A stretch of DNA of 37,717 nucleotides. Source: a virus. Of this stretch, positions 3,962 to 37,343 are shown piece by piece. The translations under genes and the position numbers were made by a program. Location of the stretch: positions 1-37,717 of the IMG/VR virus record IMGVR_UViG_3300044940_000178, one strand, 5' to 3'. The notes under the pieces are model-generated. The model was not told the origin of the DNA. It did not search any database and worked only from the letters and a program-made list of their open reading frames with translations. Position 1 is the first letter of the stretch; each line of letters begins with the position of its first letter.

Positions 3962-5580
3962 CGCGCGGCCCCGTACCGCGCACGCAGCTCGGCAGTAGGC
4001 CGCCACCCGTTTCTCGCGAGGGCATCGAGCGCAGCGCGCGCGTCCTCGAACGACAGCTCAGTAGACAGCCCGGCACGAGCGAGCACTCGCGCCTGCTTGA
4101 GCGTGCAGAGTCCCAGTTTGCGCCGCTGGAGAACGCGCGCGATCTTCGCGCTAGCGGTACGCACCGTCTCGCGACTGTCGATCTCGATCTTGAGCATCTG
4201 CATGCGGAGGATCTGATCCTCACGCACGCGCGGAGCGCTGTAGTCTCGCTCGGAGATGCCGCAGTCGGCGTCCACCGTCCACACCTGCCGTTCGCGCGCC
4301 TCGTACCGAGCGCGCACTTGCAGCCCGGCAGCCTCTCGCTCGCGCGCTCGCTTTTCTTCTCGCTCGCGCGCCAGTCTCTTCGCCTCCTCCGTTGCTTTCG
4401 CCACTGTCTCGCCGCTACGCACGAGAGCGTCGCGCTCGGCGCGCGTCGTATCGTCGAGCGGCTCGCCGTCGAAGACGTCCACGACCTTCGCGAGATCGTG
4501 ACGGGTGTTCTGCGGGTAGAAGTCGAGCACCAAGCAGTCCGTTTTGCCCGGATGAAGGCGCGTGCCACGCCCCACCATCTGCGCGTAGAGAGCGCGTGAT
4601 TTCGTGGGCCGCGCGATTGCCACGCATGATGTACGTGGCGCATCGAATCCCTCCGTGAACAGGGCGCAATTGACGAGGAACTGCACCTCTCCCGACTGAT
4701 ACGCTGCGATGGCGCGGGCGCGGTCGTCGCTGTCGCTGCCTCCGTCGAGCGAGCGCACGCGGTGCGCGCCGACGTACCCAGACAGCACTCGTGCTAGCTC
4801 GTGTGCGAGCTCTACGCTCGGCATGAATACCAGCGTCGATCGCTCGCCGGCCTCCTGTGCGAGCGGCGCAGCGATCGCATGCAGCGCCTCGTCACCTGCC
4901 ATCGCGGCCGCGAGGTCGTCTGCGCGCAGGTCGCGCCCGTGCTCTTGCCGCGATGTGCGCACGCCCTCGATCGTCACGCAGTCGAGGTCGATCGTGCGAG
5001 CGCGTATGTCGCACAGATAGCCGTCGCGGATGCCAGCTGCGATGCCGTATTCGTACACCGCCCCTGCGGTGAACACCTCGCCGACTGCGACGCCGTCTCC
5101 GCGATCCGGCGTCGCAGTGACGCCGAGCACGCGCGCGCCGTCGTACCAGTCGAGTATATCGCGGTACAGCTGCGCGGTGGAGCGGTGTGCCTCGTCGATC
5201 ACGACGAGGCCGAAGGAGTCGCGCGGCCACTGCGACAGCCGCCGGCCGCGCATCGTCTGCACCGTCGCGACTACCGCCTGTACTCCGAGCGTCGCGCCGA
5301 GTCGCGATGCTCGTCGAGCGCCGCTCTCAATCTCGCACATGACGCCGCTCGCTGTCAGTCGTGCGGCTGCTTGCTCGATCAGCTCGAGTCGGTGGGCAAG
5401 CACGAGCGAGCGTACGCCGGTGCGGGCGTAGTGACGTCGGATGATCTCGGAGAAGACTGTCGTCTTGCCCGTGCCTGTCGCCATCACGATCATCGGCGCT
5501 CGCTCGCCGCGCTCCCATGCCCTCTCGACTGCATCGATCGCTGCGAGCTGATACGGCCGCAGCGCATGCACATCTGCCAT
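3958..5580 (-). CDS. Superfamily 2 DNA helicase (DEAH box)
   Basis: This 540-residue protein has the full SF2 motif order: an LRPYQ Q-like motif at the N-terminus, Walker A ATGTGKT (34-40), DEAH (129-132), VTATP (motif III), and a second RecA domain ending in QMVGRGTRLHPGKT (motif VI). This is the layout of UvsW/RecG-type and type I restriction-like phage helicases. The C-terminus adds a charged coiled stretch (KATEEAKRLAREREEKRARE). It likely unwinds branched DNA during replication or recombination, beside the RusA-like resolvase. The start at 5580 was chosen for GAGGAGAG upstream; the in-frame ATG at 5622 has no ribosome site. Confidence 0.92.
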   Translation of the reverse strand: MADVHALRPYQLAAIDAVERAWERGERAPMIVMATGTGKTTVFSEIIRRHYARTGVRSLVLAHRLELIEQAAARLTASGVMCEIESGARRASRLGATLGVQAVVATVQTMRGRRLSQWPRDSFGLVVIDEAHRSTAQLYRDILDWYDGARVLGVTATPDRGDGVAVGEVFTAGAVYEYGIAAGIRDGYLCDIRARTIDLDCVTIEGVRTSRQEHGRDLRADDLAAAMAGDEALHAIAAPLAQEAGERSTLVFMPSVELAHELARVLSGYVGAHRVRSLDGGSDSDDRARAIAAYQSGEVQFLVNCALFTEGFDAPRTSCVAIARPTKSRALYAQMVGRGTRLHPGKTDCLVLDFYPQNTRHDLAKVVDVFDGEPLDDTTRAERDALVRSGETVAKATEEAKRLAREREEKRAREREAAGLQVRARYEARERQVWTVDADCGISERDYSAPRVREDQILRMQMLKIEIDSRETVRTASAKIARVLQRRKLGLCTLKQARVLARAGLSTELSFEDARAALDALARNGWRPTAELRARYGAAR

Positions 5581-6092: not shown

Positions 6093-6634
6093 CGCGACGA
6101 CTCCCGCGCGCGCCTGTCGCGCTCACGCTTTGCCCTCTGGTGCCGCACCCACTCGGCTCTGCGCTCCTCGAGCGTCATCGCGGCGCGTCTCTCTCGCTGC
6201 CGCTGTGCGTCCGCCTCGCGTGCGCCGGGGCGCTCGCTACGCGCTCGCTCGCGCTCACGCCGGCGAGCGAGCACCTCCGCTGCGTGTCGCGCCGCCAGCT
6301 CGCGCATCTCTGCGATGTACTTCTCGCGCGGCCGCACGCCTCGAGCTCGACGTCGCGCCTCGTCGCGCTCGCGCTCGTGCTCGCGGTTCGCCGGATCGCT
6401 GCGCCACCGGCGCTTCCGCGCGGTGTCTGCCGCGCGCTGCTCCGGTGTGCGTGGGCTACGTGCTGTCGCTTTCGCCGCTGCCACGAGCGCGACGGAGTCG
6501 ATGCACGCATGCGCCGTCTCTCGCGCCCACGCCTCGCGCAGCCACGACGATGCACGCTCGCGCTGTCGAGCGAGCGATGCACGGAGCGCATCGCGCCAGA
6601 TGCGTCTCGCCTCTCGCAGAGTCGGGACTCTCAT
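6089..6634 (-). CDS. Basic, helical protein of unknown function
   Basis: This 181-residue, strongly basic protein has long helices and several KRRWRSDPANREHERERD-like stretches, resembling a common but uncharacterised class of phage proteins with repeated basic heptads. The start at 6634 (MRVPTLREARRIW) overlaps the 43-aa gene stop by ATGA; a longer frame begins at 6727 but runs through that small gene. A DNA- or RNA-binding role is plausible from the charge; nothing catalytic is visible. Confidence 0.65.
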   Translation of the reverse strand: MRVPTLREARRIWRDALRASLARQRERASSWLREAWARETAHACIDSVALVAAAKATARSPRTPEQRAADTARKRRWRSDPANREHERERDEARRRARGVRPREKYIAEMRELAARHAAEVLARRRERERARSERPGAREADAQRQRERRAAMTLEERRAEWVRHQRAKRERDRRARESSR

Positions 6635-6762
6635 GCGTCCCTCGTGTCGTGCATCGCGCGACGTGCCCGAGCGCGCAGACGATCGCGGCGCTCGCGCACG
6701 ACGGCCGCGATTGCGACGGCCGCGCACACGACGAGCCCGACGTAGACGGCGACGTCTGTCAT
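6631..6762 (-). CDS. 43-aa single-span membrane protein
   Basis: This short gene reads MTDVAVYVGLVVCAAVAIAA followed by a positively charged tail. Residues 4-22 form one hydrophobic helix and the Arg-rich C-terminus should lie in the cytoplasm. Its start overlaps the Xre gene stop (ATGA) and its stop overlaps the next gene start (ATGA), so it is sandwiched in a coupled operon, which strongly supports it despite its size. The function is unknown; early-phage membrane peptides can act in superinfection exclusion or host takeover. Confidence 0.75.
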   Translation of the reverse strand: MTDVAVYVGLVVCAAVAIAAVVRERRDRLRARARRAMHDTRDA

Positions 6763-6965
6763 CGCGCCGCCTCGATCAGTCGAGCCGCCTCGACGCCGAG
6801 CGTCTCCGCGAGACGGCGGACGTCAGACGCGCGCGGCTGTGTACGTCCCGCCTCCCACGATGCGATCGTCTGCGGCGTGACGCCGAGCGCCACCGCAAGC
6901 CGGTACTGTGAGAGCGACGCGCGCTCGCGCGCCGCCCGGATGAGCGAGCCAATGGTGTCAGTCAT
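6759..6965 (-). CDS. Xre/Cro-type HTH regulator
   Basis: This 68-residue protein is essentially a single Xre domain: SLIRAARERASLSQYRLAVA, then GVTPQTIASWEAGRTQPRAS, the classic helix-2/helix-3 pair and following helix. Cro-sized, it heads the leftward early operon and sits beside a divergent promoter region, so it probably represses one or both promoters. No Shine-Dalgarno precedes the start; the -10 TATACA lies only 8 bases upstream, suggesting a leaderless message. TACATGTA within the -10 area is a possible half of its own operator. Confidence 0.88.
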   Translation of the reverse strand: MTDTIGSLIRAARERASLSQYRLAVALGVTPQTIASWEAGRTQPRASDVRRLAETLGVEAARLIEAAR

Positions 6966-7074: not shown

Positions 7075-7110
7075 ATGCGGATGTACTGCGCCGCGCGGGT
7101 CGAGCGATGA
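7075..7110 (+). CDS. 11-codon leader peptide MRMYCAARVER
   Basis: ATG at 7075 follows AGGAGGT at ideal spacing, the best ribosome site of the operon, yet the frame ends after 11 codons at TGA 7108-7110, which overlaps the ATG of the exonuclease gene (7107). The exonuclease itself has no separate Shine-Dalgarno, so ribosomes probably arrive through this peptide. It may simply couple translation or may have a regulatory role. Confidence 0.6.
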   Translation: MRMYCAARVER

Positions 7111-7829: not shown

Positions 7830-8428
7830 CGATCACAGATGAGCAGCGGAGGATGCTGGATGAGGACCTGCCTGCAAGTGCGGTGTCCCAGAGAACGCAG
7901 GCTGGCGTGACACTTTCGTACGTGCAGGGCTGGTGGGTGATCAGCGAAATGAATCGCATCTTCCCCGGCGGCTGGTCATACGAAGTGGACACCGCTGAGT
8001 GCTACCGCGCCGAGGAGCCGAGCGAGCGTGGCACTCGATGGCGCGTGACGTACCGTGCGCGGTGCGTACTGCGCGTCGGCGACGTCGTCATCGCAGACGT
8101 CGGGCACGGGCACGGCATCGATCGTCAGCTCGGGCTTGCAATCGAGTCGGCGGAGAAAGAGGCCGCGACAGACGCGCTCAAGCGCGCGGCGAAGAGCCTC
8201 GGTTGGCGGCTCGGACTGGCGCTCTACGACCGCACACAGGAGCACGTCGCCGACGACACCGCTCCTCAGCCGCAAGCTCAGCGCGCGAGCGAGGCGGACG
8301 AGCGCCGCGTACTCGAGGCGTGGGACGCGATGAGCGATCAGGAGAAGCGTGCTGTGTGGCCGACGCTGTCGGCCGGCACGAAAGACATGCTCAGGGCTGC
8401 CAAGGCAGCGAAGGGAGGAGTGCGATGA
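7826..8428 (+). CDS. Rad52/Rad22-type single-strand annealing protein
   Basis: This 200-residue protein has the Rad52-family core: SYVQGWWVISEMNRIFPGGW at about residues 31-50 and, near 110-135, AIESAEKEAATDALKRAAKS, the signature K-E-A-x-T-D-A-L-K-R helix. It would bind ssDNA made by the adjacent exonuclease and anneal homologous strands. The C-terminal ~60 residues are low-complexity, then helical (SDQEKRAVWPTL). The start overlaps the exonuclease stop and the stop overlaps the next start, so three genes form one coupled unit. Confidence 0.9.
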   Translation: MTITDEQRRMLDEDLPASAVSQRTQAGVTLSYVQGWWVISEMNRIFPGGWSYEVDTAECYRAEEPSERGTRWRVTYRARCVLRVGDVVIADVGHGHGIDRQLGLAIESAEKEAATDALKRAAKSLGWRLGLALYDRTQEHVADDTAPQPQAQRASEADERRVLEAWDAMSDQEKRAVWPTLSAGTKDMLRAAKAAKGGVR

Positions 8429-8733
8429 ATCGGCCAGCGCTGAAGGTGTATCTGAAGTCCGCGCGAGGTGAGCGTAAGTACGTCGATCTGCTCGCGTTTT
8501 GGCGCGGAGAGCGCGGGCTCACTGGCACACTCGATCGGAGTGTCGTCGAGCTCGCTGGCACGCTCGAGGACGGCACGACGGTGCGAGTGCGGCGTGACCG
8601 TGAGGGTCGGCTCGACGGCTGGTACATCAACGCCCGCGAGGACGGCGGCCGCACGCCGCAGCGCGCGCCAGCTCGAGCGCAGCGTCAGCCGGCGCTGCCC
8701 GACGTCGAGTCGGATGACGATCTGCCGTTCTGA
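8425..8733 (+). CDS. SSB-like protein with acidic DDDLPF tail
   Basis: This 102-residue protein follows the annealing protein with an ATGA overlap. The first ~75 residues are strand-rich (LKVYLKS..., VELAGTLEDGTTVRVRR, GWYINARE), compatible with a small OB-like fold. A Pro/Gln/Arg linker leads to the extreme C-terminus SDDDLPF, the acidic tip that bacterial SSBs use to recruit partner proteins. It is shorter than classical SSB (~170) and lacks recognisable SSB sequence in the core, so the call rests on the tail and the operon. Confidence 0.7.
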   Translation: MNRPALKVYLKSARGERKYVDLLAFWRGERGLTGTLDRSVVELAGTLEDGTTVRVRRDREGRLDGWYINAREDGGRTPQRAPARAQRQPALPDVESDDDLPF

Positions 8734-8822
8734 CGGATTTCGCGCGGTCGCTTGATCGCGCCTGCTCTCTAGCTGCCGCCGCGCTGGTGCGGTGTCGGTA
8801 GCGGTCCTGCATATCGCCAGCA

Positions 8823-8850
8823 CCACCGCCCTCTCGCCCGGGGGCGGTGG
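8823..8850 (+). terminator. Strong hairpin after the recombination cassette
   Basis: CCACCGCCC (8823-8831) pairs perfectly with GGGCGGTGG (8842-8850) around a 10-base loop. It lies in the 147-bp gap between the SSB-like gene and the next gene. There is no U-run, so it may attenuate transcription or stabilise the upstream message. Confidence 0.5.
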
Positions 8851-8880
8851 GTACTACTACGCAGAGCTACGAGGATGTGC

Positions 8881-9489
8881 ATGAGTGATGCGCGATTCGA
8901 TCCCCATGACCACATCACACCTGTGATCTACGACATCTGCGCTCGGTATGGAGTCACCATCAACTGGGCGCAGGAGAAGGAGACGGAGGACTGGGAGCAG
9001 CGCGTCAGGCTCAAAGCAGATTGCCCAGACTTCAGTTGGAGTGGGCTTGGAGACTGTGGGTTTTCGTTCCAGCGGCAGTACGTCTACGCTTGCGCCGCAG
9101 ATCCGGCGCACGTCTTCCACGAATTCATTCACTGCATTCTCGGCCAGGAGAGCACTGTCATCTGCGAAGGGTACTTCCTGATGCAGTTTGAGTGGGAACT
9201 GGCGAAGTGGGCGAGTCGAAGAATGAAAGCCGATCGCCGGTTCTTCATGGAGCGCGTCAACGCGTATCAAGAAGAGACGTACGTTCGGTTTTCGTCGACG
9301 GATTCCGGTATTTTCCGCGCCAGTGATCGTCGGCAATCGTGGTGGCGCAACGGACTTCGTCGCGCGCAAGCTCTCGGACTCCTCGACAACAAGCTAGCAC
9401 CCACGTTCAAACGCCCGAAATGGAAGGGATCTGGAGTGAAGAGGGCGCGAAATTGGTCGGTGGCAACCGACCACATGTGGACGGTCTAA
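8881..9489 (+). CDS. Putative metallopeptidase-like protein with HEFIH motif
   Basis: This 202-residue protein has HVFHEFIHCILG with H80-E81-x-x-H84, the zinc-binding helix of many metallopeptidases, followed by E96 in ICEGYF as a possible third ligand. Predicted globular, with no signal peptide, so it would act inside the cell. Its codon use and lower Arg/Ala content differ from neighbours, hinting at separate origin. The start at 8881 (GAGG six bases upstream) is preferred over the in-frame ATG at 8875. ImmA/IrrE-like regulators are one comparison; the exact family is not recognised. Confidence 0.6.
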   Translation: MSDARFDPHDHITPVIYDICARYGVTINWAQEKETEDWEQRVRLKADCPDFSWSGLGDCGFSFQRQYVYACAADPAHVFHEFIHCILGQESTVICEGYFLMQFEWELAKWASRRMKADRRFFMERVNAYQEETYVRFSSTDSGIFRASDRRQSWWRNGLRRAQALGLLDNKLAPTFKRPKWKGSGVKRARNWSVATDHMWTV

Positions 9490-9504
9490 GAAAAGGAGGG
9501 TGTC

Positions 9505-9687
9505 ATGGCCAAGGCCAGGATCGCAAAAGTCATCTGGGTTGCGCCAGACGTGGCAGAGGGCGACGCCAGAACGCTGTCGGAGGCACTGGAAGAGATTCGG
9601 AAAGTACGACAGCGCTTGTTGTTTAGAAGTCGAGCCTACATCGTCATTTGCCGAAAAGATGGCACGCAGAACAAAATCGAAGTGTGA
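9505..9687 (+). CDS. Small 60-aa protein of unknown function
   Basis: It starts after AAGGAGGGTGTC, a ribosome-site module identical to the one before the gene at 12631. The protein (MAKARIAKVIWVAPDVAEGD...) has a strand, an acidic helix (RTLSEALEEIRKVRQRL) and a closing hairpin (YIVICRKDGTQNKIEV). It is compact enough to be a folded anti-host or regulatory peptide. No family is recognised. Confidence 0.65.
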   Translation: MAKARIAKVIWVAPDVAEGDARTLSEALEEIRKVRQRLLFRSRAYIVICRKDGTQNKIEV

Positions 9688-9699
9688 AACGAGGCTGTG

Positions 9700-10053
9700 A
9701 TGGAGCGCGAGTACGAGATCGAGGCTGAGATCACCCACCGCGGCGAGACGAGGTCTGTGATCGCCACCGTGGTCGTCGAGGGGCGCTACCGCCCCGCGAC
9801 GTGGGGGTACGCCGGTGGCGATCCGCCGGAGTATCCAGACGCGCACATCGTCGACGTGCGTCTCATCGACTGCGAGGACGACGACGAGGACGAGTGCGTC
9901 CCGGTACATGAGCTCTCGCAGCACGACACAGATCACATCTGCGAGCTGGCGCTCGATCGACACGCGGACGAGTGCGACGACTACGATCCCGACGATGCGC
10001 TCGACGCGTGTCTCGACGCCGAGGCAGACGAGAGGGGCGAGCCGTGGCTGTGA
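9700..10053 (+). CDS. Very acidic small protein
   Basis: This 117-residue protein has a strand-rich first half (YEIEAEITHRGETRSVIATV) and a second half dominated by Asp/Glu (CEDDDEDEC, DDYDPDDALDACLDAEADE). Extreme acidity is typical of DNA-mimic or host-inhibitor phage proteins, though it proves nothing here. The start ATG 9700 has GAGG eight bases upstream. The stop overlaps the next gene. Confidence 0.6.
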   Translation: MEREYEIEAEITHRGETRSVIATVVVEGRYRPATWGYAGGDPPEYPDAHIVDVRLIDCEDDDEDECVPVHELSQHDTDHICELALDRHADECDDYDPDDALDACLDAEADERGEPWL

Positions 10054-10256
10054 TCGACGAGAGCACATCGCTGCTCGATGCAGCGCGCATCATCGCGGAT
10101 GCAGGGCTGCGTGTCCGTAGCGCATCGTACGATGGCGTGCGGTGGCATGTCCGCCTGGCGTCGGACGACTGCGACTGGACAGAGACTGCGCCCACGCTGT
10201 GGCTGGCGCTCGAGCGCGCGCGTAGCGCTCACGCGCGCCGAGGAGGTGTGCAGTGA
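10044..10256 (+). CDS. Small 70-aa protein of unknown function
   Basis: The start is either GTG 10044 (AGAGGGG upstream) or GTG 10050, the latter overlapping the previous stop as GTGA. The product (VAVIDESTSLLDAARIIADA...) has an N-terminal helix, then a strand segment (DGVRWHVRLASDDCDW) and a final helix ending Arg-rich. The family is not recognised. It is part of the coupled run of small accessory genes. Confidence 0.5.
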   Translation: MAVIDESTSLLDAARIIADAGLRVRSASYDGVRWHVRLASDDCDWTETAPTLWLALERARSAHARRGGVQ

Positions 10257-10507
10257 CTCTGGCGATCGTCGAGCGAGCCGAATACCTCGAAGCGGTCAAA
10301 AGAACGATCGCTAGGCATCGGGCACTGAAACCCGGCTGGTATGCCAGCAGCGGATCAATCGGTCTCACGCGCGGCCCGTACCGGACGAGGCGCGCAGCAG
10401 AAGAGTCCATGCGCCTGTCGCCGCGGGCGCGCGCAGACCAGACTCTCAAGACCAACGACGATTACCCGTACCCAGTCGATATGCGGGTGTGGAGGGAGTC
10501 GCGATGA
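10253..10507 (+). CDS. Small 84-aa basic protein of unknown function
   Basis: The GTG start overlaps the previous TGA (GTGA) and has GAGGAGGTG upstream. The product opens with a helix (VERAEYLEAVKRTIARHRAL) followed by Gly/Ser-rich and basic segments. No known motif is visible. Confidence 0.5.
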   Translation: MTLAIVERAEYLEAVKRTIARHRALKPGWYASSGSIGLTRGPYRTRRAAEESMRLSPRARADQTLKTNDDYPYPVDMRVWRESR

Positions 10508-10752
10508 AGATCCACCGAGAGGGCGAGGCGAATGGCATCCGCTGGCAGATCGTCAGCGACTGCGGCGTCAGCGGTGTCCGCTGGCGCGTCGAGGAGCCGA
10601 GTGATCATCTCGGAGGCATGCGCTGGCAGATGAGCCCAGGCGCATTCTATGACGACGTGGACGAGCACCCGGAGGGTGCCGTCGAGTGGGCAACGTCGGC
10701 CGTGCGCAAATACTTGAGGCGCATCTTCGGAGAAGAGGAGGAGGCAAAATGA
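10504..10752 (+). CDS. Small 82-aa protein of unknown function
   Basis: ATG 10504 overlaps the upstream stop (ATGA), with GGAGG nearby; the in-frame ATG at 10489 is inside the upstream gene. The sequence holds two similar stretches, GIRWQIVSDCG and GVRWRVEEPSD, with a third Trp-containing one, GMRWQMSPG, suggesting a repeated beta-hairpin. It ends in an acidic helix (RRIFGEEEEAK). The family is not recognised. Confidence 0.55.
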   Translation: MKIHREGEANGIRWQIVSDCGVSGVRWRVEEPSDHLGGMRWQMSPGAFYDDVDEHPEGAVEWATSAVRKYLRRIFGEEEEAK

Positions 10753-10961
10753 GGCAGAAGAAGCGGCCACCGACAACGATGGAGCAAGTCGAAGAGGTGC
10801 GTGCGCGTCTCGCTCAAGGCGAGCGCACGATGGAGATTGCGGCGGCTGTCGGCCTGTCGCCGACGATCGTCAGCAAGATCAAGGACGGATGGCGTCCCGC
10901 CGGCGGGCCGAAGCCGCCGCGGCTCATCCCGAGTCGTGCGCGTCAGCGGGGTGAGCGATGA
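10749..10961 (+). CDS. Small HTH protein
   Basis: This 70-residue protein has VRARLAQGERTMEIAAAVGL then SPTIVSKIKDGWR, the spacing of a resolvase/transposase-type helix-turn-helix (HTH_7-like), with basic ends. It is coupled to neighbours by ATGA at both ends. A transcriptional or DNA-structural role is likely; it has no catalytic domain, so it is not itself a recombinase. Confidence 0.6.
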   Translation: MRQKKRPPTTMEQVEEVRARLAQGERTMEIAAAVGLSPTIVSKIKDGWRPAGGPKPPRLIPSRARQRGER

Positions 10962-11170
10962 GCGCATATCACGAGCAACGCGCAGTACTGCGCGACTGCG
11001 ACGCGGACGTCGAGCTCGAGGTGCGCGGCGGCGTCGAGTGCGACGACGGCTCCGTCGGGTACGAGATCGCCATCCGCCCAGTCGTGCGCGTGGACGGTGA
11101 GCGGGAGCGCGTGATGCGCGTGTCGGCCGATGAGTGGCGCGCGTGGGTGCGCGCCGTGGGGAGGCTGTGA
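10958..11170 (+). CDS. Small 70-aa protein of unknown function
   Basis: It is coupled by ATGA to the HTH gene upstream and by a one-base overlap to the gene downstream. The product is strand-rich (DADVELEVRGGVECDDGSVG, YEIAIRPVVRVDGERERVMR) with a final helix (SADEWRAWVRAV). This is a plausible compact fold with no recognised family. Confidence 0.5.
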   Translation: MSAYHEQRAVLRDCDADVELEVRGGVECDDGSVGYEIAIRPVVRVDGERERVMRVSADEWRAWVRAVGRL

Positions 11171-11763
11171 TGACGACGATACCGACTCGGTGCCACCGAT
11201 GCGACCGCCAGCTCGCGACTCAGGCCGACTACGACACTCTCGGCGAGGGTGAGGGCGAGCATCTGTGCTGGAGCGAGTGGGGCTCGCAGTGTGAGCCAGT
11301 CGACTGGCGAGCGCGCGCTCAGCGCGCCGAAGCAGAGCGTGACGAGGCGCGCGGACACCTCGCGGAGATCAGCGCGATCCGCGACTCCATCGTCGGCGCT
11401 CAGACCGTCAACTGGAGCGAGCACATCTACCCGCTGGTGAACGTGCTCACGCGCGCCGGGTTCAAAGGCGTCGGCTTCGAGTCCGCACGGAAGAACGTCG
11501 GCACGCTCATTGAGCGGACCAAGAAGCTGACGACCGAGATCGAGATGCTGACGGCCGAGCGTGACGAGGCACGACGCGAACGCGATGAGGTCGCGGCGCG
11601 GGTGCTGGAGGAGGTCGTTGAGGAGATCAAGCGCGCAGCCAGCGACATCGGCGGTGATGAGCTGTCGAACCTGGAGGCGGCGCGCGCCGAAGGGCTGTAT
11701 GAAGCAGAAGAGATCGTTCGCAGGCTCCGCACTGCGCGGGCGGGGCAAGGAGGTGCGTTGTGA
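11170..11763 (+). CDS. Zinc-finger and coiled-coil protein
   Basis: This 197-residue protein begins with a CxxC knuckle (TRCHRCDRQL) and two further Cys (LCWSEWGSQC), enough for one zinc site. After that comes mostly helix: RAQRAEAERDEARGHLAEIS, a central insert with Trp, then TAERDEARRERDEVAARVLE, a long coiled coil. Such Zn-knuckle plus coiled-coil proteins are common in phages and of unknown role. Confidence 0.6.
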   Translation: MTTIPTRCHRCDRQLATQADYDTLGEGEGEHLCWSEWGSQCEPVDWRARAQRAEAERDEARGHLAEISAIRDSIVGAQTVNWSEHIYPLVNVLTRAGFKGVGFESARKNVGTLIERTKKLTTEIEMLTAERDEARRERDEVAARVLEEVVEEIKRAASDIGGDELSNLEAARAEGLYEAEEIVRRLRTARAGQGGAL

Positions 11764-12032
11764 GCAACAGTCAGTGGCATTCGGATCAGGCTTATGGCGA
11801 GCGGGTTCTGTTCGAGTTCAAGCAGAAGGCTGGCCTTGATTCGCGGCTCGGAGACGCGCTGCGGGCGAGCGGTATCAGTGTTGCCGATGCGCTTGCGGTG
11901 CAGGCGCTGTACGCCGGGCAGCCAGGATCGCATCGCATCGTCGCCGCGCTTCAGGCTGTAGAGAGTTGGCTCAGAGATGGGGGTGCGGAGTTGCCGAAGA
12001 CCCAGCAGAGCAGCCAGGATGGAGGCAAATGA
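11760..12032 (+). CDS. Small 90-aa protein of unknown function
   Basis: The GTG start overlaps the previous stop (GTGA) with AGGAGG upstream. The product (MSNSQWHSDQAYGERVLFEF...) is helical and has a Gly-Ile-Ser-Val-Ala-Asp-Ala stretch with two further helices, vaguely HTH-like but not convincing. It is the last clear gene of the coupled early cluster. Confidence 0.5.
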   Translation: MSNSQWHSDQAYGERVLFEFKQKAGLDSRLGDALRASGISVADALAVQALYAGQPGSHRIVAALQAVESWLRDGGAELPKTQQSSQDGGK

Positions 12033-12076
12033 GCGGGGTGAGCGAGCGCCTGGTTTCCTTCGAGACGTCGCGGTAG
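12029..12076 (+). CDS. Possible 15-residue peptide at the end of the early operon
   Basis: ATG 12029 overlaps the previous stop by ATGA and has GGAGG eight bases upstream; the frame MSGVSERLVSFETSR ends at TAG. The ribosome site is real but may only be a by-product of the upstream gene end. Confidence 0.25.
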   Translation: MSGVSERLVSFETSR

Positions 12077-12133
12077 GATGTGACGCACGGCGCGCGCTCG
12101 AGCGAGCTCTAGATGCCGCGCGCGCATTCATCG

Positions 12134-12155
12134 AGGCCCCGCCGGCCGGCCTTTT
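12134..12155 (+). terminator. Weak terminator-like hairpin
   Basis: AGGCC (12134-12138) pairs with GGCCT (12148-12152) around a CG-rich 9-base loop that can itself fold, followed by TTTT within the last arm and after it. It lies in the 12077-12279 gap, between the early cluster and the next promoter, where a stop of transcription is expected. That gap otherwise holds no gene. Confidence 0.35.
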
Positions 12156-12208
12156 CGCCAACAATCTCGGCCACTTGCGCGTTCCTCAAAAAAAGTGAGC
12201 GAAGGGAC

Positions 12209-12236
12209 TTGCGCGCGGAAAACGTGGTGCTACAAC
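12209..12236 (+). promoter_or_regulatory. Extended -10 promoter for the small gene at 12280
   Basis: TTGCGC (12209-12214), a 16-base spacer and TACAAC (12231-12236) preceded by TGC form an extended -10 promoter. The GTGCTACAA core is identical to that of the promoter at 35447-35455. ACTTGCGC also occurs at 12173. Unlike the two leaderless cases, a normal leader with GAGGAGG follows. Confidence 0.5.
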
Positions 12237-12279
12237 TGTCTCTGTCGGCGCACGGAGCGCCGGCGAGGAGGATGAGACG

Positions 12280-12537
12280 ATGGCGAATGACACCGCGGAC
12301 GTGATGACGGACGAGAGGATCGCCCGCCTCGCCGACGAGGCTGGCGAGGCCGGGGACCTCGTGCAGGTCGCCCTGTGCTGGGTGGTGATGGGCGAGGAGG
12401 AGTCGCTGGAGCGGCTCCTCGCGACGTACCCCGACGTCCGCCAGGGTGTCGAGCGGCTGGGCGGGCTCGAACCCGCCCGTGCGCGGCAGCTCTGTCTCCG
12501 CGCGCTCGACGACGCGCGCGTGATGGAGGGCACCTGA
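12280..12537 (+). CDS. Small acidic helical protein
   Basis: This 85-residue protein starts after GAGGAGG. It is all-helical and acidic (DERIARLADEAGEAGDLVQV, VVMGEEESLERLLATYPDV). It has its own promoter and is directly followed by a double-hairpin element. Proteins of this type, a short helical bundle ending DDARVMEGT, occur in phage genomes without known function. Confidence 0.6.
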   Translation: MANDTADVMTDERIARLADEAGEAGDLVQVALCWVVMGEEESLERLLATYPDVRQGVERLGGLEPARARQLCLRALDDARVMEGT

Positions 12538-12543
12538 TCGCCG

Positions 12544-12606
12544 CGCCGCACCCGTCGAGGTGCGGCGTAGCCCCGAGCGGCGAGCGGTGGCTCGACGCTG
12601 GGGGCT
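12544..12606 (+). repeat. Double-hairpin element, copy 1
   Basis: Hairpin I: CGCCGCACC (12544-12552) pairs with GGTGCGGCG (12559-12567) around six bases. Hairpin II (12569-12606) is one long stem: AGCCCC, AGCG and CGAGC pair with GCTCG, CGCT and GGGGCT, separated by single G.A and G.G mismatches, with tetraloop GGTG. Hairpin II is identical base for base in copy 2 (13014-13051) and hairpin I differs only around its loop. There is no U-run. It sits immediately after the gene ending at 12537. Confidence 0.8.
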
Positions 12607-12630
12607 GCGAGACGCGGCAAGGAGGGTGTC

Positions 12631-12984
12631 ATGGGATATCGGATCGCTAGGCGGCTGTTCGGCTTGATCACGCACGAAGATGGGACGCCCGTCTGGGGAG
12701 TGAGAGTGGTCGAGTACGAGAGTAGCGGGACGACAGCGGTCCAGTTTTCGGACGACAGCTCGATCCTCGTGGGGCCGAACGGCGACGTCGATCTGTCCGT
12801 CGAGGACTCTATCGCCGAGTACGTGCTCGATGCCGTCGTGGACGGCATCGAGAGCCTGCCCTCGGGAAGAGAGCTGGACGCACTCTACGAAGAGGGCGAC
12901 AGTTGGCGGCGCGAGGTCGTCGACCGCGCTCGACGCGGAGACCTCAAAGCGCGCATCGACTGCGCGTACGAGCTCCAGGACTGA
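12631..12984 (+). CDS. Unknown 117-aa protein between the two hairpin elements
   Basis: It starts at ATG 12631 after AAGGAGGGTGTC. The product (MGYRIARRLFGLITHEDGTP...) has a strand-rich first half (VWGVRVVEYESSGTTAVQFS, DLSVEDSIAEYVLDAVVDGI) and an acidic-basic helical end. No motif is recognised. It is flanked on both sides by copies of the same double-hairpin element, which may make gene plus element a repeated unit with the gene at 12280. Confidence 0.6.
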   Translation: MGYRIARRLFGLITHEDGTPVWGVRVVEYESSGTTAVQFSDDSSILVGPNGDVDLSVEDSIAEYVLDAVVDGIESLPSGRELDALYEEGDSWRREVVDRARRGDLKARIDCAYELQD

Positions 12985-12991
12985 TCGCCGA

Positions 12992-13051
12992 GCCGCACCC
13001 TCGGGTGCGGCGCAGCCCCGAGCGGCGAGCGGTGGCTCGACGCTGGGGGCT
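12992..13051 (+). repeat. Double-hairpin element, copy 2
   Basis: Hairpin I: GCCGCACC (12992-12999) and GGTGCGGC (13004-13011) close a CTCG tetraloop. Hairpin II (13014-13051) is identical to copy 1, with stem segments AGCCCC/GGGGCT, AGCG/CGCT and CGAGC/GCTCG. Here it lies between the end of the rightward genes and the convergent endolysin gene, a position that also fits a bidirectional terminator. Confidence 0.8.
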
Positions 13052-13072
13052 GCGAGGACGCGACGCGCTCGC

Positions 13073-13089
13073 GCCGTCAGACTGACGGC
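13073..13089. terminator. Inverted repeat across the endolysin stop codon
   Basis: GCCGTCA (13073-13079) and TGACGGC (13083-13089) form a perfect 7-bp stem with a 3-base loop overlapping the stop of the leftward late operon. Being symmetric it could act in both directions; no T-run is present. Confidence 0.35.
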
Positions 13090-13763
13090 CAGCCGAGACT
13101 CTCAGTCAGCAGCCCGCATGCGTCGATCTTGCGCGTGTCGGGCAGGTGCATGTGCTCGATGCACCCGCGCATCTGCGCGAGCTGAGCGAGCGTCAGTCGT
13201 CTGTCTGGCGGCGCGACACGACGCGGGATAGCGATCCTCGAGTCGCGCGCCGCGGCGAGCGTCTCCGCGAGCCAGCGCCACGACTCGAGCAGCTCGTCTG
13301 ACGGCCGCATGCACTCGATGCGCTGTCCGTCCACGCGCCGCACTACCGTCTGTCCGTGCGCGCCGAGCCGAGCTGCCTGCCGTGCGGTGCCAGGCCACAT
13401 GCACTCGACGCCGATGGAGCGCGTGATCGTGGGCCGGTGTCCGACGTGGACTGCCGCGTGCGCGAGATCGAGATGCTGCCAGATGAGTCCGTCCCATGCG
13501 ACGGAGAAATGCACTGACACCGACAGGTCGCCGCCGTCAGCTGCTCGCCGCGACTCCATCGCGCGCCACAGCCGCGGTCCCGCAGTCGGGCCCTCGCGCG
13601 TGTGCCCAGCCGTCCAGTGCCCCACCAGCAGCTCGATGGGGTAGCGGCGCGGGCGTGTCTCGCGTCCGGCAGTCCACCATGCACTCGAGTCGCGAATGAC
13701 GCGCTCGGTGCCCGGCAGTACGATTCCGTCGATGATGATGCCGCGCTCGATGATGTCAGTCAT
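13077..13763 (-). CDS. N-acetylmuramoyl-L-alanine amidase endolysin
   Basis: This 228-residue protein has the Amidase_2 layout: VGHWTAG (H49, first zinc ligand), DGLIWQHLDL (91-100), AAVHVGH (H106), GVE (E120), and near the C-terminus HMHLPDTRKIDACG, matching the third ligand and the K-x-D-P-like motif of T7-lysozyme relatives. It should cut the amide bond between muramic acid and the stem peptide at lysis. It has no signal peptide, so a holin is needed. It is the last gene of the late operon and its start overlaps the phosphoesterase stop (ATGA at 13760-13763). Confidence 0.85.
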   Translation of the reverse strand: MTDIIERGIIIDGIVLPGTERVIRDSSAWWTAGRETRPRRYPIELLVGHWTAGHTREGPTAGPRLWRAMESRRAADGGDLSVSVHFSVAWDGLIWQHLDLAHAAVHVGHRPTITRSIGVECMWPGTARQAARLGAHGQTVVRRVDGQRIECMRPSDELLESWRWLAETLAAARDSRIAIPRRVAPPDRRLTLAQLAQMRGCIEHMHLPDTRKIDACGLLTESLGWPSV

Positions 13764-20857: not shown

Positions 20858-23484
20858 GAGAACACCTTTGCAGCGATTGGAGTCGTGCTCGTAACGATCT
20901 CTCCTGCCGTTCCTGCGACGAAGGCAAACATGAGCATGCGAGCGTCATCTTCATACAAAATGCTATGGCGGGGCCCGAGAGTCCACTCGTCGTCATCTGT
21001 CCACGACGCGGTAAGCGTGACGCGCACCACCGAGGCCGACACGGACATTAATTCGCCATCTATGCTGACAGCGAATGGAGTATCCGTCTGACGGATCGTC
21101 ACCGCATCTCCGACGCGGTAGTAGCTCCGAGCGTCAGGCGTCGATGCATACGTCATGTCCAGAGTGAAGTCCCATGTCGTGCCGGACACATGCGACGCAG
21201 ACGAGATGGGCAGCTCCGGCGCGTAGCCCGCGACAGTCTGCGTACTGATCAGGACCGTGATCGTCGTGCGCCCGGTGCCGAGCTCCGTCTTGTGCGCGGT
21301 GACGATGCCGACGGCGTCGATGCCGGACTCGCCATCTTGCCCGACGACAAGCCGCGACGACAGGCGCACTCTGTCACCGATGCGAGCGTCCATGTACCGC
21401 GCATCGGTGACGAGCGTCACCGCCATGTACGGAGCGCCCCACATCCCGAACGCAGTCATGGCAATACGCGCCACGTCTGCGCGGCTCAGTCTGCTCCAGT
21501 CGTCACCACGGTGCTCATCCTCGCCGAACGCATAGTACGATCCGCTCAGCGTCGAGCGCTGAGCGATCTCGAGCGACACCGGAGTGCGCACGCTGGAAGT
21601 CGTCTGCACGTCGCGGAAAGTGAGCATGCGGTCGTCCCACTCACCGGTGCGCGGGTCGTAGCCCACGCGGTAGACGACATGGGAGAGCACTCCGCGCGAT
21701 GAGCGCTCGACGCTCGGTACGCCGATGATCGCGGAGTCGTCGATGTCCCAGTCCACACCGTCAGTGCCGAGCGCTGGAGACAGCCGCGCCCATCTCAACG
21801 CGCCAGTCAGCGAGATTCCCTGATACGCGCCTACAGCACGCAGCTCTGGCTCGACGTACTCGCGCATCTCCGCTTCGTCGAACGCAGCAAACCCGCGTCC
21901 CGACGTGATGCGCGTGTTCGCCAGTGTCGTCTCCAGATCGGCAGTCCACGTCACCTCGCCAGGCGCGATGAGTGGCATCGCGCCGGTGTTGGCAAGCGTC
22001 GGGCTGTCGTCGCGGATGTTCGCGATGAAGTTCACTACCGTCGCGCCCCGCGCGATGATGCGGCCGACGGTGATCTCGGTAGAGCCCTCAATCCTGACGA
22101 TGATGGCCGCATGCGTCAGAAGTACCGATCGAGTCGGAAGATCGACAGACTCGACGTAGTAGTTGGCACCAACGTCGGAAGATAGCCAGATGATGTCTCC
22201 GGGATTCGGCACGACAGTGCCTGCCAGATAGATGCGCCTGTTGGCTGCGGACTCCCACGCGCCACGCTCTCTGCCGCTGCGATCGAAGAACCCAATCGTC
22301 GCGCGAGACGACGGGACCGTCACGTCGGACGTGTACATGGTGTCGGATGATGGCGTCCAAGTTGCCCCCATGATCGCCAATGGAAACCCGTCTCCGTCCC
22401 GAAATTGAAGTGGACGCGGCACTCCAGGCAGCACGTACTCGCCAGGAGTATTGGCCAAAATCTCAGCGTAGATGGCCACAGGAGACGACGTTGCGGTGAC
22501 GTAGACGAGCCGATATCCAGATGGCGTTGGCTGTAGTCGCAGGCTCGCACCCGTCCCGAGACTGATCCCTGCGGCACTCAGCGCCCCGTCAATGAGTGCG
22601 TTCGCTGCGTTGCACATCTCACGATTGGACTCGAAAAACCCGACGAGACGCACGACAGCAGAGCGGCCGAGTGCGCCGCTCGGCCCGTAGACGCGAAGCT
22701 GCCACGGGCACGCAGGCGTGAAGTGGATGCCACGAATCGAGATTGGCCCCACCAAGTCGCCTCCGACGGGCTGCGACAAAAGGCGTGCGATGGAGTCGAT
22801 CTGGATCTCAGCAACGCCATCAGTCCACGCGACGTCCGTCGCGCACACGCCACGCCACCGCAGCACCCCGAGCGAGTCGAGCTGCGCGGTGGACACAGGT
22901 ACCTCGCCGAGGATATACAGGTACGCCCTGCGTCCCTCGACGCCAAGCGGGTAGTCGGTGACCATCGCGTCAGCGAGCCCCTCGCCGTCCGACACGTAGT
23001 GCGCCTGAGGGATGGTGTCCCACGCTCCGCGCGTACACCCGGTGAGCGTAGTCGCCGTCTTGCCCGTGTAGCGAATGGCCTCTGTGCCGATGTGCACAAC
23101 GCCAGACGACGGCAGCCCCGCAGTCGAGTACACATCGAGCGTCGTGGCAGTGGGCGTCGCAGTCGTACGCAGGTACGTGCGTACAGTCGGGCCGCGAAGC
23201 AGCGAGCGCGTCACTTCACCGTGACGCGCGCCGGCGAGCCTGCCCATGTCCACGATGCGAGCGGTGATGCCGTCCGCCTCGAGCGTCGCGCGCATCATGT
23301 CGGCACTCGCTCCGATCGCGATCTGCGAGACGTCGAGCCCGTGCAGACGCACGCGCCCGTCTGTCAGCGAGCGGGCCATGCGACGATCGGACACGAACTC
23401 GGCGGGCCAGCCCTCGATCACGAGGCGTGCGCTGATGCGGCCACGGCCAGTCGCACCGATGCGTGCCAGCGACGAGAGCGTCAC
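20854..23484 (-). CDS. Large tail protein, probable hub or tip
   Basis: With 876 residues this is the largest protein in the window. The N-terminal ~240 residues (LARIGATGRGRISARLVIEG, YILGEVPVSTAQLDSLGVLR, VAEIQIDSIARLLSQPVGG) resemble the N-terminal domains of phage tail-hub/baseplate-like proteins; the centre and C-terminus are strand-rich. GTG 23484 overlaps the upstream stop. It occupies the place where siphophages encode the central tip protein. No enzymatic motif is visible. Confidence 0.6.
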   Translation of the reverse strand: MTLSSLARIGATGRGRISARLVIEGWPAEFVSDRRMARSLTDGRVRLHGLDVSQIAIGASADMMRATLEADGITARIVDMGRLAGARHGEVTRSLLRGPTVRTYLRTTATPTATTLDVYSTAGLPSSGVVHIGTEAIRYTGKTATTLTGCTRGAWDTIPQAHYVSDGEGLADAMVTDYPLGVEGRRAYLYILGEVPVSTAQLDSLGVLRWRGVCATDVAWTDGVAEIQIDSIARLLSQPVGGDLVGPISIRGIHFTPACPWQLRVYGPSGALGRSAVVRLVGFFESNREMCNAANALIDGALSAAGISLGTGASLRLQPTPSGYRLVYVTATSSPVAIYAEILANTPGEYVLPGVPRPLQFRDGDGFPLAIMGATWTPSSDTMYTSDVTVPSSRATIGFFDRSGRERGAWESAANRRIYLAGTVVPNPGDIIWLSSDVGANYYVESVDLPTRSVLLTHAAIIVRIEGSTEITVGRIIARGATVVNFIANIRDDSPTLANTGAMPLIAPGEVTWTADLETTLANTRITSGRGFAAFDEAEMREYVEPELRAVGAYQGISLTGALRWARLSPALGTDGVDWDIDDSAIIGVPSVERSSRGVLSHVVYRVGYDPRTGEWDDRMLTFRDVQTTSSVRTPVSLEIAQRSTLSGSYYAFGEDEHRGDDWSRLSRADVARIAMTAFGMWGAPYMAVTLVTDARYMDARIGDRVRLSSRLVVGQDGESGIDAVGIVTAHKTELGTGRTTITVLISTQTVAGYAPELPISSASHVSGTTWDFTLDMTYASTPDARSYYRVGDAVTIRQTDTPFAVSIDGELMSVSASVVRVTLTASWTDDDEWTLGPRHSILYEDDARMLMFAFVAGTAGEIVTSTTPIAAKVFS

Positions 23485-31440: not shown

Positions 31441-32405
31441 CACAGGATCCCCGCGTACGCCACTTGCCAGACACCCGCACCGAACACGATGTCGAACTCC
31501 ACCGAGTAGCGGAACTCATCGAGATCGAAGCGAGCAGGGCTGTCCATCGAGTCGAGCGTGACGGCCTCGGGCGCGCGGAACTCGTAGCCGACGATCGGGC
31601 TCGCGCCACGACTCGTGTCCACGAGATACCAGTAGTCGTCCTGCACGCTTCCGAGCGGCATGCGCGGATCGACGACGACGTTGACCGAGCCGCCGGAGAA
31701 CACCTGCACGCCGCGGAAGTTGGGCAGCGACGTCGCAGCGATGCGAGTGCCGCTCTCCTCACCGCTGCTGTTGACCGCGGCGACACGCTCAGTCGAGCCC
31801 GTGATCTCTCGCGCCACTGCGGCGAGCTTCGGCCCGACGATCAGCGTGTCGTACGAGATCATGAGCGGCTGACCGTTCGCATCACGCAGCGACGCGCCAG
31901 TCTGCATCGCAGACTCGAACGTCGCGAGCGAGAGAGCAGACGTCGTCGTGTTGCTCTGGTTGCCGCCGCCCGGCCCGCGCGGATGCGCCGAAGAGAACAG
32001 CGGCACACCGTCGTACCCAGTCGGGTTCGAGAAGAGCACGCTGTGCGCCTCGGCGTCGTACATGTACGCAGTGTCGCTGAGGAACGACGCGATGCGACGG
32101 CCGACGATGCCAGTGCGGTCCGTCTGTAGATCGAGGCGCTTGATGCGGAACGACGCCTCGAAGCTCTTGAGCGTGAGCGTGTGAGCCGCCGCCTGCACGT
32201 CGTTGTACTGCTTCGCTCCGACCCACTCGCGCGCGACGGGCATCGCCTCAAGCACGTCGTGCTCGACGATCTTGGAGTCAGTCGGGAAGACGCTGGTGAA
32301 CGTCTGGTACACGCCGGGAGGGCGTCCAGCGCCGAAGATTTCCGCGGCGAGCTCGCGGAAAGTCGTGGACGCGTTTTCGATGATGCTGCGATCGGTGACT
32401 GCCAT
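31440..32405 (-). CDS. Mu gpT-like major capsid protein
   Basis: This 321-residue protein (MAVTDRSIIENASTTFRELA...) matches the Mu gpT family of HK97-fold capsid proteins: YQTFTSVFPTDSKIVEHDVL, KSFEASFRIKRLDLQTDRTG, PLFSSAHPRGPGGGNQSN, PLMISYDTLIVGPKLAAVAR, DDYWYLVDTSRGASPIVGYE. The length fits. AAAGGAAG precedes the ATG at good spacing. It lies after the protease/scaffold and decoration genes, the Mu order. Confidence 0.9.
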   Translation of the reverse strand: MAVTDRSIIENASTTFRELAAEIFGAGRPPGVYQTFTSVFPTDSKIVEHDVLEAMPVAREWVGAKQYNDVQAAAHTLTLKSFEASFRIKRLDLQTDRTGIVGRRIASFLSDTAYMYDAEAHSVLFSNPTGYDGVPLFSSAHPRGPGGGNQSNTTTSALSLATFESAMQTGASLRDANGQPLMISYDTLIVGPKLAAVAREITGSTERVAAVNSSGEESGTRIAATSLPNFRGVQVFSGGSVNVVVDPRMPLGSVQDDYWYLVDTSRGASPIVGYEFRAPEAVTLDSMDSPARFDLDEFRYSVEFDIVFGAGVWQVAYAGIL

Positions 32406-35654: not shown

Positions 35655-37150
35655 AGCCCACGACGTCCGGCTCGGTAGAGCGACGCGACGGGGCGGATCT
35701 CTCTGCGCTGCTCCGGTGTGTGCTGCGCTTGCGCGTACACGGGACCCGCGGATATCTCGTCATACGCGGCGGCGAGAGCATCGACGAGATCGTCCGAGTC
35801 ACCGTCGAGGCCAGTGAATCGCGCGAGCTGACGGGCCAGCTCGTCTGCGTGGCGCAACGTGCGCAGGATACGCAGTCTGCCGCTGTTCACCGCGGCGGCT
35901 AGCGGCTGGGCGCGTCCCCACTTGTCGTCTGTCGCCTTGTGCTGCGTGATGTACGCTGGAAACGTGTGATGCGTCGCGAGCAGATCGACGAGAGCGCTCT
36001 CCGCGCCGCCGGCGTACATGCGAAGTGGTGCGCCGTGCCACCGACGTTGCAGCGAGTGCAGACGGCGCGCAAAACCCAGCTCGAGCTGCCCGTCTTCGCC
36101 CGTGCGGTCGGTGAGCAGCTCGCGCGCGTACTCGATGTCCACGACATAGATGATGCCGTTCGGGTCACGAGCGAGCATGACGGCCGCCTGGCGATCGGAG
36201 CGCGACTTCGCCGTGCGCGCGAGATCGACGCCGCCCGCGTACACTGCATCCGTCGGCGCATCACTCGCCCACGTGATCGCTCCGAATAGAGCGCCTCCCT
36301 TGGGCCGCGGAGAGCCCTGATAGAGCGACGCCCACGCGTACGGCCCGAGCCTCGACTCGATGGTGCGCAGTCTCTCGAGGCTCCACATGCGCGGCGCGAG
36401 CGCGCTCCCGTCGGGCCGTATGGCAGGTAGGTTGATCAGCTGGAACGGGCGCGGGCCGTCTTCAGTGCGCCTTGTCATGACGCCGATCAGATCGTCCTCG
36501 TGCCATCGCGTGTGCACGATGACGTGAGACGTGCCACGCGGCAGCTGCCGAGTGTAGATGTCGTCGCGATATCCGGTGTTGACAGTGTCGCGCTCGAGCG
36601 GAGACTCGGCGCTTTTGCGCGATCGGTGTGGATCGTCAACGATGATGACGTCGAACCCATCACCCGTCGGCGGGCCGGTAATGCCGCACGCTTTCACCGA
36701 ACCGCCGCCCGCAGTCGTCCACTCGCTCGACGTCTGCACCTCGCCCATCGCGATTCCGACCTTGCGCGCGAGCGCGCGCATCGCTCGCGTCTGCTTGATC
36801 GCCATGCGCGAGCCGAAGGAGCAATAGAGCACCTTCAGATCGGGCCGCTGGGCGAGCAGCCACACGATCCAGTGCACGATCGTCGTCGTCTTGCCGTGAC
36901 GCGGCGGGACTGACACGCACACCTCGATCGACTCGCCGCGTGCCACGCGCTCGAGCTCGCGGATGAGAGGCTCGAGGTGGGCGGGATCCTCGAGGTGCCT
37001 AGAGACTGTCGGGATCCACTCCCTCAGTGGAGGCAGCCTGCGAGCCAGTGCCTCCGGTCGTCCCGCCCTCGCTGCGCGATCGCGCTGCTGACGAGCGCCG
37101 TCTGCCTGACGACGAATCCGCTGCACTCTGCTGATCGTCGCCAGCGTCAT
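35645..37150 (-). CDS. terL: Terminase large subunit
   Basis: This 501-residue protein has the ATPase Walker A PPRHGKTT (82-89), Walker B VIIVDD (168-173), the coupling motif region near HTRWHEDD (213-220), and an RNase H-like nuclease with GGVDLART (D309) and a late DDLVDALAAAYDE acidic motif. It drives DNA into the procapsid and cuts concatemers. ATG 37150 overlaps the stop of the zinc-ribbon/Xre frame (ATGA), but the first ~42 residues overlap another gene and are not conserved-looking; GTG 37126 is possible. Confidence 0.95.
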   Translation of the reverse strand: MTLATISRVQRIRRQADGARQQRDRAARAGRPEALARRLPPLREWIPTVSRHLEDPAHLEPLIRELERVARGESIEVCVSVPPRHGKTTTIVHWIVWLLAQRPDLKVLYCSFGSRMAIKQTRAMRALARKVGIAMGEVQTSSEWTTAGGGSVKACGITGPPTGDGFDVIIVDDPHRSRKSAESPLERDTVNTGYRDDIYTRQLPRGTSHVIVHTRWHEDDLIGVMTRRTEDGPRPFQLINLPAIRPDGSALAPRMWSLERLRTIESRLGPYAWASLYQGSPRPKGGALFGAITWASDAPTDAVYAGGVDLARTAKSRSDRQAAVMLARDPNGIIYVVDIEYARELLTDRTGEDGQLELGFARRLHSLQRRWHGAPLRMYAGGAESALVDLLATHHTFPAYITQHKATDDKWGRAQPLAAAVNSGRLRILRTLRHADELARQLARFTGLDGDSDDLVDALAAAYDEISAGPVYAQAQHTPEQRREIRPVASLYRAGRRGLYT

Positions 37151-37343
37151 GCGGGATCAGCGCTCGGTGACTCGTGATCTCCCCGCCCGCAATCCCCATG
37201 ATCGACGCAATCGTCTCTGCCGGCAGCTCCGACAGCCTCGACCTCAGCTCCTCCGCACACGCCTCCACCAGCAGCTCGAGCTTCGCCACCCACTTTCGAG
37301 ACACCACTCTTCGCCCGATTCGCACTCTGCCGTCTGCCCTCAT
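36999..37343 (-). CDS. Small gene overlapping the terminase start, possible small terminase
   Basis: This 114-residue protein starts at ATG 37343 with GAGGAG eight bases upstream. The N-terminal ~70 residues are helical and basic (RIGRRVVSRKWVAKLELLVE, RSRLSELPAETIASIMGIAG); the rest is Ser/Gly-rich and disordered. Codon third positions are G/C-rich, supporting a real gene. It overlaps the terminase frame by about 150 bp and the Xre gene by about 200 bp. Its position suggests the small terminase subunit; sequence does not confirm it. Confidence 0.6.
   Translation of the reverse strand: MRADGRVRIGRRVVSRKWVAKLELLVEACAEELRSRLSELPAETIASIMGIAGGEITSHRALIPHDAGDDQQSAADSSSGRRRSSAARSRSEGGTTGGTGSQAASTEGVDPDSL

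Follow-up and report, generated by a model that had tools for sequence, protein, structure and literature searches.

In this study, we analyzed a 37,717-base window of viral DNA (GC content 66.5%), which is the whole of the virus record IMGVR_UViG_3300044940_000178. It belongs to a tailed phage, whose minus strand encodes a large terminase together with a portal of the Mu type and a Mu-like major head protein (Pfam and PHROGs). The nearest terminase among the genomes searched was 38% identical and came from an uncultured deltaproteobacterium, which is too distant for host assignment. A rightward operon starts at 7107; its first genes are recombination genes of the YqaJ/RecE-like and Rad52/Erf-like types, after which come an SSB-like gene (so labelled only because of its collinear position and its weak resemblance to the counterpart in relatives) and approximately 4 kb of small genes. 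The element described here forms the far end of this operon. The endolysin gene is the final gene of the leftward late operon and is convergent with gene 2 (Table 1). Other genes in the window encode an HTH protein (6759-6965) and a ParB-like N-terminal part fused to an MT-A70 DNA methyltransferase domain (1647-2873).

The element occurs twice. Copy 1 separates the co-directional genes 1 and 2, which are 93 nt apart, and copy 2 occupies the gap where the rightward operon ends and meets the convergent endolysin gene. Gene 1 showed a strong codon-position bias (GC1/2/3 of 0.80/0.45/0.92), and had no match in Pfam, PHROGs, NCBIfam or PADLOC, nor in phage, viral or relative records; only weak matches (best E-value 7e-4) were obtained among 284 genomes belonging to the same phylum as a GC-rich genome, G008. 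Similarly, no homologue of gene 2 was found in Pfam, PHROGs, NCBIfam, PADLOC, viral contigs or phages, and the two genes are unrelated to each other. A candidate promoter in the leader of gene 1 (TTGCGC-16 nt-TACAAC, 12209-12236) has 8 of 12 consensus bases and was not reported by the consensus scan. Because of this long non-coding leader and its weak promoter-like sequence, genes 1 and 2 may form a transcription unit of their own. In addition, the ribosome-binding context AAGGAGGGTGTCATG was identical at 9493-9507 and 12619-12633, in front of two unrelated accessory genes (starting at 9505 and 12631), and none of 100 shuffles held two matches.

Table 1. Genes, copies of the repeated element and predicted structures between the small-gene region and the endolysin gene.
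Feature	Position	Strand	Remark
Non-coding leader of gene 1, 247 nt	12033..12279	+	Sequence
Gene 1, 85 aa, function unknown	12280..12537	+	Ends at the TGA opening copy 1
Copy 1 of the element, stop codon included	12534..12616	+	94% identical to copy 2 over 84 alignment columns
Possible closing helix GCCGCG/CGCGGC, copy 1 only	12541..12618	+	Fold of 12480-12700
Copy 1 hairpin 1	12545..12566	+	GCCGCACC (CGTCGA) GGTGCGGC; fold and model R1 alignment
Copy 1 hairpin 2	12567..12608	+	GTAGCCCC-G-AGCG-G-CGAGC (GGTG) GCTCG-A-CGCT-G-GGGGCTGC; fold
Gene 2, 117 aa, function unknown	12631..12984	+	Between the copies; ends at the TGA opening copy 2; codon-position bias
Copy 2 of the element, stop codon included	12981..13062	+	94% identical to copy 1
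Copy 2 hairpin 1	12992..13011	+	GCCGCACC (CTCG) GGTGCGGC; fold and model R1 alignment
Copy 2 hairpin 2	13012..13053	+	8+4+5 pairs, two 1x1 mismatches, GGTG loop; fold and model R1 alignment
Endolysin (N-acetylmuramoyl-L-alanine amidase)	13077..13763	-	Pfam Amidase_2, E-value 2.8e-11; PHROG endolysin

The duplicated two-hairpin sequence is real and beyond chance. An earlier note on this DNA had described two elements of about 60 bases at 12544-12606 and 12992-13051; the sequences are indeed found there and the duplication was confirmed, but the size was underestimated, since the repeated unit covers approximately 83 nt and includes the stop codon. The 38-nt core that the note had reported as identical, AGCCCCGAGCGGCGAGCGGTGGCTCGACGCTGGGGGCT, is present without a difference at 12569-12606 and 13014-13051, and no such match appeared in any dinucleotide shuffle of the window. 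Similarity between the copies begins one base before the TGA (C-TGA), the stop codon of each gene being the first codon of the element, and the first stem begins 7-10 nt past the TGA in both cases. The two copies share not only their orientation but also their register relative to the stop codon. Both edges of the repeat are sharp, flank identity falling at once to chance level (20% over 10 nt upstream and 30% over 60 nt downstream).

The copies differ at five places in total. The loop of hairpin 1 is CGTCGA in copy 1 and CTCG in copy 2 (two single-base deletions), so that the previous statement that hairpin 1 varies only around its loop was nearly right; it had missed, however, a C/A change at 12544/12991 on the 5' side of hairpin 1, a T/C change at 12568/13013 that turns a G-U pair at the base of hairpin 2 into G-C and keeps the pairing, and one indel on the 3' side of hairpin 2. 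One of the five differences falls in a stem, compared with 50 of 78 positions that are paired (P = 0.06, which is not significant and suggestive only). Coding function was rejected as the cause of the identity because the net 2-nt difference in the loop does not keep the reading frames, and a tandem gene duplication was rejected because genes 1 and 2 are unrelated.

Both copies are predicted to fold into a pair of adjoining hairpins, in agreement with the double-hairpin, RNA-like structure proposed before. The predicted free energy of hairpins 1 and 2 together was -55.2 kcal/mol for copy 1 (z -5.05) and -57.3 kcal/mol for copy 2 (z -6.27), and none of 200 shuffles was as stable as either. Among all 75-nt windows of the contig, the copies ranked first and second in stability on the plus strand and also on the minus strand. 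The reported lack of a U-run held for both strands: the 21 nt after the hairpins contain 2 and 1 T on the plus strand, and 3 and 5 on the minus strand. The possible closing helix of copy 1 would give this copy a predicted three-way junction just 5' of the Shine-Dalgarno sequence AAGGAGG (12619), whereas copy 2 is devoid of the partner bases and cannot form it. The predicted unpaired probability of the gene 2 Shine-Dalgarno sequence was 0.56-0.73 with copy 1 and 0.78 without it. Such a fairly accessible site argues against an on/off translation switch, and a translational switch for gene 2 was thought unlikely because copy 1 barely alters this accessibility.

To the extent of our searches, the element is specific to this phage, as the earlier note had supposed, since it was found in no other sequence. 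Rfam covariance models gave 0 matches to the element, blastn against phages and plasmids returned only short matches at chance level, and exact element patterns were present in none of 2.9 million viral contigs and none of 84,980 genomes. A covariance model built from the two copies (model R1), which scores them 94 and 88 bits, gave no convincing match among the relatives, among 284 genomes from the phylum to which the host of the nearest terminase belongs, or among approximately 1,190 genomes of three further phyla (approximately 1,475 genomes altogether). Because these scans used strict filters and the true host perhaps lies outside the genomes searched, absence elsewhere is not proof. Several candidate matches were discarded. 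The best other match in the contig (33104-33140, 78%) is inside a coding gene and has a background score with model R1; a 24-nt, 92% match in three related contigs (G001, G002 and G005) lies within their SSB-like coding gene and reflects a coincidence of composition; and the pattern CTGATCGCCGNGCCGCACCC in one viral contig (L017) falls in apparent coding sequence where the hairpin is absent. Short matches in G008 were scattered and background-like, model R1 finding none there, and the single match of model R1 in one of the 284 genomes (G215; 33.5 bits, E-value 0.05 per genome) was treated as chance.

A handful of related contigs were gathered by endolysin, exonuclease and terminase searches. 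The nearest relatives showed 67-75% protein identity and were largely collinear with this phage, the endolysin being 67-69% identical in two of them (L005 and L007). Genes 1 and 2, the small genes at 8875-12984 and the element itself were all absent from these genus-level relatives. The stretch from 8734 to 12984, in which approximately 4.1 kb of small genes separate the SSB-like gene from the endolysin gene, is a hypervariable accessory site, the flanks of which adjoin each other or enclose other small genes in the relatives. In L005, the SSB-like gene and the endolysin gene directly face each other in convergent orientation, and their junction, which is the syntenic place of copy 2, has a different, single hairpin (4690-4720); with T-rich DNA on one side, it looks like an ordinary terminator.

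Some further features of the accessory region were observed. Two genes at 8875-9687 have a clearly lower GC content than the rest of the phage (third position 0.62-0.69) and are probably recent arrivals, judging from their composition. Another strong U-poor hairpin (CCACCGCCC...GGGGCGGTGG, 8820-8852, z -2.5) separates the SSB-like gene from the gene at 8875. The accessory region of L007 contains a long array of approximately 12-nt repeats (6611-6941) that gives an Ala-rich repetitive open frame. In addition, direct repeats at the contig ends of two relatives, G001 (1-583 and 36813-37401, 95%) and G003 (1-127 and 38788-38914, 100%), suggest that these genomes are complete or circularly closing, though they are classed as linear.

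With respect to function, we propose, with about an even chance of being right, that the element works as a transcript-end module, either a U-less terminator or a 3'-end protector or both, and that its second copy arose by recombination. The position at the stop codon, the stability whichever strand is folded and the placement of copy 2 between convergent genes suggest such a role: both copies start exactly at a stop codon and are the most stable windows of the contig, and copy 2 is placed exactly in the convergent junction of two operons. Moreover, since L005 has a terminator-like hairpin at the same junction, a strong hairpin would be expected there. Among the three roles suggested previously (a phage-specific RNA motif, a protein-binding RNA and an mRNA 3'-end protector), an mRNA 3'-end element fits best, and a protein-binding RNA is possible but unsupported. 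The view that these are not standard terminators holds in a strict sense, since a U-tract is missing on either strand, for which reason textbook intrinsic termination is not expected; the element may nevertheless have a role in termination, as U-less two-hairpin ends are reported to be common in GC-rich bacteria (PMC8355165) and strong U-poor hairpins also occur at gene ends of GC-rich control phages. In 13 bacteria, hairpin clusters with most often two members, located no more than 80 nt from the stop codon, were found to match transcript ends from RNA-seq; they usually have no poly-U and are favored in GC-rich genomes, although this computational and RNA-seq study cannot separate termination from processing (PMC8355165).

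According to this proposal, the two GC-rich hairpins would form once the ribosome leaves the stop codon. Copy 2 would form a boundary between the early/accessory operon, which runs rightward, and the convergent late operon, which runs leftward and includes the endolysin gene. Being stable as RNA from either strand, this copy could serve as a two-way end point. RNA polymerase may pause or terminate there in spite of the missing U-tract, alone or with the help of a factor (Rho, for example); in addition or instead, the hairpins may block 3'-to-5' exonucleases and thereby define and protect the 3' ends of mRNAs. The situation of copy 1 speaks against a full terminator, because it lies inside an apparent two-gene unit in which gene 2 would be silenced. 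The end of its second hairpin is approximately 20 nt from the start of gene 2, which is too short for a promoter; thus, if gene 2 is expressed, copy 1 must be leaky. As an attenuator, it might lower or uncouple the expression of gene 2 and protect the message of gene 1. The second copy may have been acquired by recombination in the variable region between the SSB-like and endolysin genes, either when a unit of gene plus 3' element was added at an existing element or when gene 2 was inserted between copies, the element being copied along with the gene or serving as homology for its acquisition, and the Rad52/Erf-like and YqaJ/RecE-like recombination genes of the phage are in line with this route. 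As a control, four annotated phages were folded. GC-rich control phages also had strong U-poor hairpins at gene ends (such as Microbacterium phage Blett at 8411-8485, 21161-21235 and 32066-32140), so that this kind of hairpin is not exceptional. What is distinctive is that one and the same element is exactly reused behind two adjacent genes.

The repeat may have no task as RNA at all. It could be a REP- or MITE-like mobile or recombinogenic palindrome, or the boundary of a cassette swap, with the stop codon at its edge by chance. We consider this somewhat unlikely, although it is the most probable of the alternatives. The sharp edges of homology between unrelated flanks and around an unrelated intervening gene speak for it, the surrounding 4.1-kb accessory region is missing from genus-level relatives, the phage has its own recombination genes, and a control mycobacteriophage, DarthP, carries several gene-end repeats of approximately 40-90 nt, two of which include a TAA stop. 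However, a mobile element would be expected more often than in the two copies seen here, with none elsewhere in the contig, in the relatives or in the collections searched by exact pattern. No target duplication was seen either, and a shared orientation and stop-codon register are not expected from unselected insertion.

It is less probable, and on the whole doubtful, that a phage or host protein binds hairpin 2 and thereby co-regulates both genes at the level of translation, antitermination or RNA decay. The second hairpin has stayed 100% identical between the copies, including its loop and mismatches, while the loop of hairpin 1 has drifted; a recent duplication would explain this identity equally well. 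The predicted three-way junction of copy 1, located immediately before the Shine-Dalgarno sequence of gene 2, would suit a regulatory RNA, but its closing helix is lost in copy 2, behind which there is no co-directional gene to regulate. Rfam matches, homologues and a candidate binding protein were likewise not found.

A more ambitious version of the transcript-end proposal, which we put forward as a long shot, is that of a cis-acting phage RNA cassette combining a stop codon, a 3'-end shield and a recombination handle, and marking exchangeable accessory genes. Genes would then arrive with their own insulated 3' ends and be swapped through the element by the Rad52/Erf-like recombinase. It is at least as improbable that the imperfect palindromes are double-stranded DNA sites for a dimeric regulator rather than RNA structures: although the 44 nt of hairpin 2 are nearly palindromic (self-complementarity of 80% between copies) and the phage encodes the HTH protein mentioned above, the copies follow stop codons instead of lying at promoters, and no similar palindrome occurs elsewhere in the contig. 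Finally, a second copy created by a mis-joined repeat is hardly credible, because the copies differ at five positions and are flanked by unique sequences and gene 2 has its own coding bias, even though no second record containing the locus was present besides this IMG/VR record.

If the element indeed acts at transcript ends, it would offer a clean natural test of transcript ending without a U-tract in GC-rich phages, with one sequence placed in two contexts of the same genome, between co-directional genes and between convergent operons. That the duplication starts precisely at the stop codon would then illustrate, on a small scale, how phages gain accessory genes along with their 3' ends. If this reading fails, the element would be a local curiosity of one uncultured phage.

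Among the known systems that come close are the U-less two-hairpin cluster ends (Gupta and Pal, 2021; PMC8355165). Shared features are hairpins less than 15 nt apart (adjoining here), a first stem no more than 10 nt from the stop codon and hence inside the 80-nt limit, a GC-rich genome, no poly-U, and a location between operons in the case of copy 2. Different from these ends, the sequence is present twice here and copy 1 is inside an apparent operon; with regard to the location between transcription units that is a criterion of that study (PMC8355165), copy 2 lies between convergent genes and copy 1 between co-directional ones. A canonical Rho-independent terminator has a GC-rich hairpin in common with the element, which is without the U-rich tract on either strand. 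The terminator-like hairpin of L005 is likewise strong and sits where the SSB-side operon converges with the endolysin gene; however, it is single (9 bp plus an inner helix) and T-rich on one side, whereas two hairpins without a T-run and with dissimilar sequence are found here.

REP/BIME sequences are extragenic GC-rich palindromes located after stop codons in bacterial chromosomes, which can stabilize mRNA or attenuate transcription and which number tens to hundreds per genome. The element shares their extragenic position after stop codons and their GC-rich palindromic nature. It differs from REP/BIME or MITE-like sequences in having two copies, with none in 84,980 genomes (exact patterns) or in approximately 1,475 genomes (model R1), among which the true host is perhaps not included. 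As to integron attC sites, sequence inspection for the core-site triplets found neither AAC nor GTT in either copy.

Within phages, cluster K mycobacteriophages contain start-associated (SAS) and extended start-associated (ESAS) repeats in 11-19 copies, whose function is unknown (PMC3203893). Like the element, they are phage-specific repeated intergenic sequences with inverted repeats beside small genes, but SAS is a 13-bp repeat at translation starts (PMC3203893), whereas the element is found at stop codons, in two copies and with unrelated sequence; moreover, no co-directional gene starts after copy 2, unlike the placement of SAS/ESAS. Mycobacterium phage DarthP (L118) has repeats of the form CTAACGCCGGC...CTCGAGCACC at 10377, 24689, 30019 and 48907, the first three at the 3' ends of different genes (two of them including the TAA stop codon, as the element includes its stop) and the fourth inverted. 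These are more diverged, of far weaker structure and of other sequence. Because of the DarthP gene-end repeats and SAS (PMC3203893), phage-specific repeated intergenic elements have precedent.
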